Of a stretch of DNA of 64,000 nucleotides, positions 3,052-63,396 are shown in pieces. Location of the stretch: contig JAAYBD010000029.1 of the NCBI GenBank assembly GCA_012719035.1, positions 41,940-105,939 of the forward strand. Direction: 5' to 3'. The first letter of the stretch is position 1. Every line of letters starts with the position of its first letter. Source of the stretch: Clostridiales bacterium (GTDB lineage: Bacteria > Bacillota > Clostridia > Oscillospirales > Oscillospiraceae). The notes under the pieces were generated by a model. The model was not told where the DNA came from, ran no database searches, and worked only from the letters and a program-made list of their open reading frames with translations. A program made the translations under genes and the position numbers.

Positions 3052-3241
3052 TTTTCTCTCTCTCCTTAGTATCACTTAAAGGTGAAAAATTAATATGCGC
3101 ATATATTAGCACGATTTGAAGTCAATTGCAAATATTCATGATATTCATATATATGCGGCGTAATAGCGTAAGAAACTAAATAATATTCACAGATTCGTTG
3201 ATATTATTGCATTTTTACTATTGCCTTATGAAAAACAGAAT

Positions 3242-3482
3242 GGTATAATGCCTACAAAGCAGACATTATACCTGATTTAAAAGCATATACCATAACGCTG
3301 CTTCGCAGCTATGGTATAATGTCTACAAAGCAGACATTATACCTGATTTAAAAGCATATACCATAACGCTGCTCCGCAGCTATGGTATAATGTCTACAAA
3401 GCAGACATTATACTTGATTTAAAAGCATATACCATAACGCCGCTTCGCAGCTATGGCATAATGTCCACAAAGCGGACAACAT
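3242..3482 (+). repeat. Tandem array of a 71-bp unit, ~3.4 copies, with two hairpin-forming palindromes per unit
   Basis: Starts GGTATAATG at 3242, 3313, 3384 and GGCATAATG at 3455, i.e. exact 71-bp period; arms GTATAATGTCT/AGACATTATAC and ATACCATA..GCTGC/GCAGC..TATGGTAT. Confidence 0.95.
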
Positions 3483-3567
3483 GGGGCTGATTTTAAATAA
3501 CATATCATTACGCCCGAAGGCGGTCATGATAGATACATTCAAATCGACAATAATCGGAGGAAGAACA

Positions 3568-4782
3568 ATGAGCGATATAAAAAAATGCGTGCTTGCATAT
3601 TCGGGCGGTCTTGATACATCGATAATTATTCCATGGCTGAAGGAGAACTACGGCTGTGAAGTAATTGCAGTTTCCGGAAATGTCGGTCAAGCGGACGAGC
3701 TTGAAGGACTTGAAGAAAAAGCACTCAAAACAGGTGCAAGCAAGCTGTATGTACTGGATCTCGTAGATGATTACGCTGAAAACTATCTTATCCCCACCAT
3801 GAAGGCGGGCGCAAAATACGAAACCTATCTTCTCGGCACCGCAACTGCGCGCCCCTGCATAGCAAAGGGGCTTGTAGAAGTTGCACTGAAAGAAGGAGCG
3901 GACGCGATCTGCCACGGCTGTACGGGAAAGGGCAACGATCAGGTACGCTTTGAGCTTACTATCAAAGCGCTGGCTCCGCAGATGAAAATCATTGCCCCAT
4001 GGAGAGAGTGGGACATAAAGAGCCGTGAGGAAGAAATCGAATATGCAGAGGCTCATAATGTTCCTTTGAAAATAAATCGCGAAACAAACTATTCAAAAGA
4101 TAAGAACATGTGGCATCTGAGCCATGAGGGACTTGATCTTGAGGATCCCGCCAACGAGCCGACCTACAATAAACCCGGCTTTCTTGAAATGAGTGTTTCT
4201 CCCGAAATGGCTCCGGACAAGCCGACCTATGTTGAGATAGAGTTTGAAAGGGGTACGCCGGTTGCCGTTGACGCTGAAAAGATGAAAGCCTCAGATATCA
4301 TTTGGAAGCTCAATAAGCTTGGTGGAGAAAATGGCATAGGCATTATCGATATTGTAGAAAACCGTCTTGTCGGCATGAAATGCCGCGGCGTCTATGAAAC
4401 ACCGGGCGGCACTATTTTATATCATGCGCATCAGGTGCTTGAAACGCTTTGCCTTGACAAGGCGACCGCGCATTTGAAAGAGCAGCTTGCCGTTACTTAT
4501 GCAGAACTTGTATATAACGGACAGTGGTTTACCCCGCTTAAAAAAGCCCTCGACGCATTTGTCGAAACGACCCAGGAAAATGTTACGGGAAAAGTAAAGC
4601 TGAAGCTTTATAAGGGCAATATGATAAACGCCTCTGTCATCTCACCGTATTCGCTTTATTCCGAGAACATCGCCACTTTTGGAGAGAGCGATTATAACCA
4701 AAAGGATGCCGAAGGCTTCATAAACCTGTTCGGACTTCCGATAAAAGTCAAGGCAATGCTTGAACAGGGGCTTCTGAATTAA
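3568..4782 (+). CDS. argG: Argininosuccinate synthase
   Basis: [41 protein letters not shown]...; RBS CGGAGG at ~3555. The longer ORF start at 3481 overlaps the repeat array and is unlikely. Confidence 0.97.
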
Positions 4783-27836: not shown

Positions 27837-27902
27837 ATCGCACCTCCATTTGACGCCTTTTCTTGGAAGAATTCCGCTGTTTCGATGTTGCATTTGCATA
27901 TT

Positions 27903-27974
27903 ATACCATAGCCGCGAAGCGGCATTATGGTATATGTATTTTAATCCTGTATAATGACTGCGGTCATTATACCA
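27903..27974 (-). repeat. Solo copy, inverted orientation, of the 71-bp repeat family
   Basis: ATACCATAGCCGCGAAGCGGCATTATGGTATATGTATTTTAATCCTGTATAATGACTGCGGTCATTATACC aligns over its length with the reverse complement of the unit upstream of argG. Confidence 0.9.
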
Positions 27975-28696: not shown

Positions 28697-28770
28697 GCGG
28701 GTGTAGTTCAATGGCAGAACATCAGCTTCCCAAGCTGAATACGTGGGTTCGATTCCCATCACCCGCTCCA
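28697..28770 (+). tRNA. tRNA-Gly (anticodon CCC), encoded CCA
   Basis: GCGGGTG..CACCCGC acceptor, TCAGC-TTCCCAA-GCTGA anticodon arm, GTGGG-TTCGATT-CCCAT T-arm, 3' TCCA. Confidence 0.93.
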
Positions 28771-28851: not shown

Positions 28852-28968
28852 ATGGTATAATGACCGCAAAGCAGTCATTTACCTTTATTTAGATCATATA
28901 TATCATAACGCTGCTTTCGCGGCTATGGTGACCGCAGTCATTATACAGGGTTAAAATACATATACTAT
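28852..28968 (+). repeat. Degenerate ~1.5-unit copy of the 71-bp repeat family
   Basis: ATGGTATAATGACCGCAAAGCAGTCATTTACC...ATCATAACGCTGCTTTCGCGGCTATGGTGACCGCAGTCATTATAC; same order of motifs as the argG-upstream unit. Confidence 0.8.
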
Positions 28969-29081: not shown

Positions 29082-29318
29082 ATGTGTTGTAAAAATTGTG
29101 AAACTCAAATTGTTGAAGATTCGGATTTTTGTCCTGAGGATGGGGTTATGCAAAGCCCGGATTGTGCACAGAATTCCAAGAAAAAGGCAAAGCCGTTTTA
29201 TAAAGAATGGTGGGTTTGGACAATTGCCGGCGCTACCACAGTAATCAGTATAGCAGTATTGTTGACCTATAGGAAAGACAAACGGTTATATAAAAAAGTA
29301 CTCGACCGTATAATATGA
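29082..29318 (+). CDS. Small zinc-ribbon plus TM-helix protein, unknown function
   Basis: MCCKNCETQIVEDSDFCPEDG...WWVWTIAGATTVISIAVLLTY; RBS AGGAGG. Confidence 0.65.
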   Translation: MCCKNCETQIVEDSDFCPEDGVMQSPDCAQNSKKKAKPFYKEWWVWTIAGATTVISIAVLLTYRKDKRLYKKVLDRII

Positions 29319-30548: not shown

Positions 30549-31718
30549 TTAGCCGATAAAATGCTGTGTCCAGTAGTTGCCGTCGGCAACATATCCGACA
30601 CCGATCTGCGTGTAGGAGGCATTTAAGATATTTGCCCTGTGTCCGGGTGAATTCATCCAAGCGTCCACAACTGCCTTAGGTGTTGCATAGCCCATAGCTA
30701 TGTTCTCGCCGGCTGTTCTATAGCTGATACCAAAAGAGCGGATCATATCGAAGGGAGAACCGTAAGTGGGGCTTGTGTGTGAAAAATACCTGTTATCATG
30801 CATGTCCTGTGATTTTGCCCTTGCCACATCGGAGAGCTTTCCGTTAAGGGTGAGAGGAGCAAGACCGTTCGCAGCGCGCTGCTCGTTTACCAGAACTACA
30901 ACCTGCTGTTCAAAGGACAGATTATCGATATTTCCGTTGTCTGTCGGTTCTGTACCGCTGTTGTCAGTGGGTGAAGGCTTAGGAGTTTCCGGCTTTTCGG
31001 AAGGCTTAGGAGTTTCCGGTTTACCGGAAGGCTTAGGAGTCTCCGGTGCAGGAGTGCCGGGATTTTTGGGCTGACAGTTACCAAATATATTTGCATTTAT
31101 ACCGTATTTTGCAAAAATATTGTTCAAGTAGCTGAAAGGTGCCTTGCTGGTGTATGTATTCGAGCCGATATTGAATACTGTTCCGCACTGCTTTCCGGCG
31201 GTAACACAGCTGTTTGTTGTGCAGTCAGCTTTTGCTGTGCAGTTGTCCTTTGTCGCACAGTCAGTTTTTGCTGTGCAAGTGCTGTCCTTTGCCTTGACCG
31301 GAGTTGTTGCTTCGGGAACTGCCGCCGGCTGTTTCTGGACAGCGTTTGTAGAATTGCTTTCTTTTGTAGTCGTGTTGATGTTAGAATTCTGTTTTACGGC
31401 TTCCTGAACCACGTTGGCTGTCGGTGCAGGTTCAGATGAGGGAACTGCTGTTTCCGTTTTGCCGCAGTCCGACTTATTATCCGACGGTGCCGAAGTGCCG
31501 AAGAGATCAAGACCGTTGAAAAGCGAATTTAGGTCAATACCATTTAAGTATTCAGAAATCTTAGCATTTGAACATGCGGAGCCTGCGTTTGCCAGACCGT
31601 TATTTCCCGTACATGAAGAACCCCATGTAACCGAAGCTGCCGAAGCATTTACCACCAAGCTTGAGACCATGAGTACCGATGACAGGATGACAAGAATTCT
31701 TTTCTTTAGATTTTTCAT
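30549..31718 (-). CDS. CAP (SCP/PR-1) domain secreted protein, YkwD-like
   Basis: Signal peptide MKNLKKRILVILSSVLMVSSLVVNASAA; proline-rich PETPKPSGKPETPKPS linker; C-terminal CAP domain (LVNEQRAANGLAPLTLN...DMHDNRYFSHTSP...GENIAMGY...WMNSPGHRANIL). Confidence 0.93.
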   Translation of the reverse strand: MKNLKKRILVILSSVLMVSSLVVNASAASVTWGSSCTGNNGLANAGSACSNAKISEYLNGIDLNSLFNGLDLFGTSAPSDNKSDCGKTETAVPSSEPAPTANVVQEAVKQNSNINTTTKESNSTNAVQKQPAAVPEATTPVKAKDSTCTAKTDCATKDNCTAKADCTTNSCVTAGKQCGTVFNIGSNTYTSKAPFSYLNNIFAKYGINANIFGNCQPKNPGTPAPETPKPSGKPETPKPSEKPETPKPSPTDNSGTEPTDNGNIDNLSFEQQVVVLVNEQRAANGLAPLTLNGKLSDVARAKSQDMHDNRYFSHTSPTYGSPFDMIRSFGISYRTAGENIAMGYATPKAVVDAWMNSPGHRANILNASYTQIGVGYVADGNYWTQHFIG

Positions 31719-31892
31719 TAGGTCACCTCCTTGCGGTAATTGTAACACTTTTGTAACTATTATCAACCTGTAAATGTTGCCAGACACTACGCGATAAAGG
31801 ATGAAAATAGGCAAAAAGAGGTCTATAAGTTTTGATCTGACAGAGGCTGTCATTGGGACACAGGCGGTGCCGATAGGAATACAGAAAAATAG

Positions 31893-63375: not shown

Positions 63376-63396
63376 CATGGTATAATGCAAAGCGGA
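63376..63396 (+). repeat. Short remnant of the 71-bp repeat family
   Basis: CATGGTATAATGCAAAGCGGA shares ATGGTATAATG and CAAAGC with the unit. Confidence 0.5.

Follow-up and report, generated by a model that had tools for sequence, protein, structure and literature searches.

The tandem array upstream of argG in the 64,000-nucleotide stretch analyzed here (the window, from the 2.29-Mb genome G000) belongs to an uncatalogued, dispersed family of palindromic repeats. Judged from sequence comparison, and with a probability of roughly 0.7, the element is a short, non-autonomous, MITE-like palindromic repeat that would insert in one direction just 3' of an extended -10 box, which it would re-create. 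An initial annotation of this DNA had proposed an uncatalogued, dispersed intergenic family, which was borne out by the lack of an Rfam match, by real covariation and by a mobile-looking distribution. It had missed the key property, the apparent sense-oriented insertion precisely at the -10 box. The two points added here are the bias of the elements toward the downstream gene and the start of the element exactly at a native extended -10.

Architecture of the argG array and its repeat unit

The array in front of argG spans 3241–3532 and consists of three near-perfect units and a decayed fourth (Table 1). TRF returned a period of 71 bp, 3.4 copies and 95% matches over 3240–3478, in agreement with the initial description of ~3.4 units of 71 bp; the fourth unit, to ~3532, extends beyond the TRF span and was added by eye. 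Each unit contains a P2 palindrome, an A/T-rich spacer of ~15 nt and a P1 hairpin, in this order and bracketed by TGnTATAAT boxes, and unit length across the family is ~65–79 bp. P2 (GGTATAATGTCTACAAAGCAGACATTATACC) includes the box TGGTATAAT, and the right arm of P1 (ATACCATA[AC]GCTGC-TTC-GCAGCTATGGTAT) is the box of the next unit. The arm (A)TGGTATAAT is therefore common to P1 and P2, confirming the earlier observation of two palindromes that share an arm. At the ridA locus of G000, a minimal copy (L105:3231–3286) has two boxes (TGTGGTATAATG ... TATGGCATAATG) with only P1 between them; P2 could thus be dispensable, or could have been deleted there.

Table 1 Features of the argG array and of the other copies in the window (window coordinates)
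Feature	Position	Strand	Evidence or remark
-35-like hexamer TTGCCT, native to argG	3221–3226	+	17 bp before the -10; sequence and orthologous congener promoters
Extended -10 box TGGTATAAT, native to argG; left bracket of the array	3241–3249	+	Matches the -10 of nine array-less congeneric argG promoters
argG array unit 1	3241–3311	+	TRF period 71; CM E 2.7e-13
argG array unit 2	3312–3382	+	TRF; CM E 8.3e-14
argG array unit 3	3383–3453	+	TRF; CM E 3.9e-13
argG array unit 4, decayed (TGGCATAATG ... ATATCATTACGCCCGAAGGCGGTCATGATA)	3454–3532	+	HMM match to 1714–1773 of L001; regex
Palindrome P2, argG unit 1	3242–3272	+	Recurs at 3313–3343 and 3384–3413; decayed at 3455–3478
Hairpin P1, argG unit 1	3287–3317	+	Left arm with 2-nt AC bulge; covariation
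Hairpin P1, later argG units	3358–3388, 3429–3459; decayed 3502–3531
Native argG leader after the array, with RBS CGGAGGAAG	3533–3567	+	Compared with leaders of empty sites
argG (argininosuccinate synthase), host gene of the array	3568–4782	+	Pfam PF00764, PF20979
Single-unit copy upstream of recG, co-directional, TGGTATAAT on both sides	27900–27974	-	BLAST E 3.7e-15; CM E 9.2e-13
Full unit and partial second unit, upstream of a 78-aa ORF at 29082	28852–28968	+	BLAST E 1.8e-9; CM E 8.7e-8

On both strands, the argG array had a stronger fold than its 200 dinucleotide shuffles (z -4.2 and -8.2). In the alignment of units, 91.3% of cells were paired, compared to 83.0 ± 0.7 after shuffling, 14 pairs carried double changes (8.1 ± 1.3 in the shuffled alignments), and pairing was lost when the 3' partners were slid by 1–3 columns. 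Covariation was found in both P1 and P2. The initial annotation had cited CTTCG/CTCCG as a compensating-looking change; this difference is not compensatory because it sits in the loop, and the genuine compensatory changes are located in the stems. The unpaired AC of P1 is present in 25 of the 30 rows of alignment A1, as counted by eye, and the inner sequence of P2 varies freely yet stays symmetric.

The level at which the P2 symmetry is maintained can be assessed from its position relative to the promoter. With the first box acting as promoter, the predicted start falls in the loop of the first P2, which would leave the left arm of that P2 outside the transcript. First-unit P2s nevertheless pair like internal ones (0.86 versus 0.82, p 0.19), and the symmetry is therefore better explained at the DNA level, either by a hairpin needed for movement or by palindrome correction. 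The P2 right arms mirror unusual host boxes at zapA of G002 (TGTTATAATGTCC/GGACATTATAACA) and at uvrC of G001 (TGGAATAAT/ATTATTCC), which is compatible with a movement hairpin and with palindrome correction alike.

Distribution of the family

A covariance model had been proposed in the initial annotation and was built here from 30 units (model R1, alignment A1). It gave 33 matches at E ≤ 0.01, distributed over ~25 loci in G000, and matched in 7 of the 12 genomes of the genus; BLAST placed the unit at 13 places in the G000 genome. Within the window, the copies claimed earlier at 27903–27974 (inverted) and 28852–28968 are real by both searches (Table 1). The copy claimed at 63376–63396 contains the TGGTATAATG box only, with neither P2 nor P1, and was returned by neither search. 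A tRNA gene (RF00005, 73 bits) lies at 28697–28767 (+), ~85 bp upstream of the 28852 copy, and tRNA-like sequence was also seen near recG in several congeners.

Exact-pattern relatives outside the genus were confined to Oscillospiraceae/Clostridia, Faecalispora jeddahensis among them, and to unnamed-bacterium records. An order-wide sample of 295 genomes contained the element in 10 genomes, representing 9 of 149 genera, with 16 matches in G180; the distribution of relatives across Oscillospirales is patchy, and many of them are fragmented draft MAGs. Units at different loci are more similar within a genome than between genomes (0.73 versus 0.69; reached by 2 of 2,000 permutations). The unit had no match in Rfam at gathering or permissive thresholds, and no description of the family was found in the open-access papers searched. 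No match to the element was detected in plasmids, phages or viral contigs, and a phage, plasmid or viral vector for its spread was rejected on this ground. Elements from other families (L246 in G063, L248 in G066 and L249 in G143) retain the TGnTATAAT brackets and P2 around a different, longer interior with extra hairpins, and the bracket rule may thus be common to several element families.

Orientation toward the downstream gene

Across the genus, 42 of 44 arrays lie just upstream of a co-directional gene (binomial p about 1e-10). Forty of these were assigned by script and two by eye (L086, in front of a response regulator, and L089), and two G000 copies (L100 and L104) have no assigned co-directional gene. 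The median distance from array to downstream gene is 62 bp, with gene starts taken from a simple ORF caller. The upstream neighbor shows no comparable pattern, being on the same strand in 20 cases and on the opposite strand in 24. The downstream gene is co-directional in 22 of 28 cases from other genera. The genes downstream are functionally unrelated and include argG, recG, tex, a rex-like repressor, thyA, bacA/uppP, a gyrB-like subunit, ridA, zapA, uvrC, smpB, pyk and csp, among others; zapA, dagK and GNAT genes bear elements in several species. At one G001 locus (L106), two back-to-back elements occupy a divergent intergenic region, each facing its own gene (zapA and a 320-aa ORF).

Junctions at native -10 boxes

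Since the unit carries its own box, the finding that elements start at a box is trivial by itself, and the claim of box targeting rests on orthologous empty and filled sites at about five loci (argG, thyA, recG, smpB and zapA). The argG site is empty in all nine congeners with readable data, which have the same promoter and no array. The G000 array begins exactly at that native -10 box and is followed by an RBS-bearing leader whose length is similar. The empty congeneric sites contradict the earlier suggestion that the argG array is the founder of the family; argG is a recent target.

At smpB, the site is filled in G006 by one unit (TGTTATAATAAC-[unit]-TGTTATAATAAC) and in G001 by a different unit; it is empty, with the -10 in an unchanged position, in G000, G003, G004, G007, G008, G010 and G011. 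Among the genomes read, thyA and recG are filled in G000 only. The zapA element is more persistent across species than those at the other four loci, as the site is filled in three species (G000, G001 and G002), contains decayed-looking remnants in three more (G006, G007 and G011), whereas the G003 site is empty. The elements turn over between species. A promoter supplied wholly by the element was considered and rejected at the five loci, where element-less relatives have the -10 at the same place. Filled sites have a box on both sides (TGTTATAATAAC twice at smpB of G006), as a target-site duplication would leave, but the two boxes of a site do not always agree in the variable base, and the right one may instead belong to the element. 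The zapA boxes of G001 and G002 (TGTTATAAT on the left and TGGTATAAT on the right) suggest that the left box is host sequence, as it is the left box, resembling the host promoter of other species, that keeps the host peculiarity. Best matches to a -35 before the first box rise at the canonical 16–18 bp spacing (3.08 versus 2.57 ± 0.14 shuffled) and are weak at several loci. The smpB promoters across the genus (L219, L209, L208, L213, L215, L216, L207 and L211) have a conserved CTTGACA only ~7 bp upstream of TGnTATAAT, a spacing unusual for a sigma-A promoter.

Probable unit of movement and proposed mechanism

Two unrelated G000 loci (L086 and L087) have in common a 79-bp segment, 100% identical, that is bounded exactly by TGATATAAT at each end and lies in unrelated flanks, and the last unit of L091 resembles the argG units and ends at the same box. 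Together with the higher similarity within a genome, these boundaries indicate that the box-to-box segment is likely the unit of movement.

On the preferred reading, the element would insert immediately 3' of TGnTATAAT, oriented along transcription, and its 3' end would supply a second box, giving a filled site of the form [native -35]-TGnTATAAT-[P2-spacer-P1]-TGnTATAAT-[native leader]. The native promoter would remain intact and the insert would turn into 5'-leader, possibly adding extended -10 promoters, and further units could pile up in tandem at the same box. With a copy of the signal at its other end, the element could pass from one gene promoter to another and leave each of them working. 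Movement may proceed by insertion of a hairpin-forming single strand, at a host cost that would be low because the promoter is preserved. The mobilizing step could depend on a putative trans-acting enzyme or on box-to-box microhomology recombination; conservation of the P1 core and of its unpaired AC leads us to favor an enzyme, which would act on hairpin single strands. Both routes predict sense-directed insertion after TGnTATAAT.

A more specific version, which we offer as speculative, is that the putative enzyme delivers the hairpin single strand into the transcription bubble 3' of TGnTATAAT, with the box being duplicated and transcription continuing. We know of no earlier element that uses open promoter complexes as an integration site. 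If correct, this would define a new class of mobile element that targets the melted -10 region of the promoter.

The usual view of small repeats in bacteria is that they land randomly and are tolerated between genes. The junctions read here point to a specific and internally consistent target; on the preferred reading, an extended -10 target would explain how this element could multiply inside core-gene promoters (argG, smpB, recG and thyA) without host death. The empty and filled sites across Oscillospiraceae provide a ready set for testing promoter-directed transposition, the cost of long structured leaders and the effects of tandem -10 boxes on transcription.

Alternative explanations

The most serious rival shares the insertion model and concerns the mobilizing step only: circles or single strands shed by tandem arrays would recombine or template-switch into further promoters through the 9–12 bp of shared extended -10, and quasi-palindrome correction during replication would keep the palindrome arms matched. 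We regard this as possible, although not the probable course. It accounts for boundaries that coincide with the box, for tandem stacking and for P2 right arms that track the host box variant, and it requires no dedicated transposase. Neither an autonomous parent nor a mobilizing enzyme was found. Y1_Tnp (PF01797) is missing from G000, G001, G002 and G006 and from seven of eight other carriers. Reverse transcriptase is likewise missing from G000, G001, G002, G004, G006 and F. jeddahensis. On these distributions both enzymes were rejected as the mobilizer. Retention of the P1 sequence and its unpaired AC in other genera, however, suggests that a protein recognizes them, differences in the variable base between the left and right boxes also count against this rival, and patchy spread between genera is easier with a trans-acting mobilizer. 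Movement by a REP-associated tyrosine transposase (RAYT), which would make the repeat a REP/BIME element, is the least credible of the readings weighed. GTAG or CGTC tetranucleotide tags define REP superfamilies (PMC3733652). The element does resemble REP/BIME/REPIN sequences in its two alternating small, imperfect palindromes or hairpins, its intergenic location and its tandem clusters, but it is not one of them because the A1 consensus has neither tag and Y1/RAYT is missing from G000 and most carriers; its copies, moreover, sit upstream of genes. Of the REP/MITE-type label given initially, only a MITE-like reading is retained, and neither a RAYT in G000 nor a parent transposon was found.

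The remaining alternatives attribute the spread to regulation. In one, the element is a cis-regulatory RNA leader whose alternative P1 and P2 hairpins in the 5'-UTR control expression, with selection keeping a regulon of co-regulated genes. The sense orientation before genes, the covarying stems, the conserved AC and the recurrence at zapA, dagK and GNAT genes would all be expected of such a leader; conservation at orthologous genes would be too, yet most orthologous sites are empty (argG, thyA, recG and most smpB), the genes are unrelated, no Rfam family matches, and P2 is paired equally in first and internal units. We consider this improbable. The structured RNA family offered by the initial annotation is accordingly not the best reading, since sites are mostly empty and pairing in P2 is kept even where the -10 forms its left arm and so precedes the predicted transcript. 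In the other, the element acts at the promoter as an operator in the DNA or as a cruciform sensitive to supercoiling, and spreads by selection for regulation. P2 does cover both the -10 box and the predicted start with its symmetry kept, but its inner sequence varies freely, unlike that of an operator, and turnover between species and the unrelated genes likewise make this reading very unlikely.

Comparison with known systems

Like MITEs, the element is short, ORF-less, multi-copy and dispersed; unlike them, it has no terminal inverted repeats of a parent transposon, its ends being direct TGnTATAAT boxes that each adjoin a separate hairpin. IS200/IS605-type elements have a hairpin at each end and a short directional target beside the left end that fixes orientation. 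Apparent directional insertion 3' of a short target makes the element here work like their derivatives, with the differences that most carriers lack TnpA_Y1, a copy of the target box stands at the right end and no autonomous copy was found. Pneumococcal BOX/RUP/SPRITE sequences are mosaic, tandem-repeated small intergenic elements of Firmicutes, similar in these respects but of other architecture and genera, and we know of no box-targeted insertion among them. Putative mobile promoters, or promoter propagation, disperse a promoter sequence to unrelated genes, whereas here the pre-existing promoter would be the target and only the -10 box would be duplicated. The term is cited in PMC8049555.

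Correia elements, which are Neisseria MITEs, carry sigma70-like promoters, and one lies immediately downstream of the mtrCDE promoter (PMC10969869). Compared by description only, they are likewise small, non-coding, palindromic, multi-copy and often immediately upstream of genes, but they are larger than the 65–79 bp unit, which has direct TGnTATAAT boxes in place of terminal inverted repeats, appears to insert at native -10 boxes in a fixed direction and stacks in tandem. To our knowledge, Correia elements occur only in Neisseria.

Other features of the window

A T-box leader (RF00230, 129 bits) lies at 1242–1495 on the minus strand. Tandem repeats of 27 bp (30973–31047) and 18 bp (31207–31277) fall inside a 434-aa minus-strand ORF (30549–31853) and are probably protein repeats.
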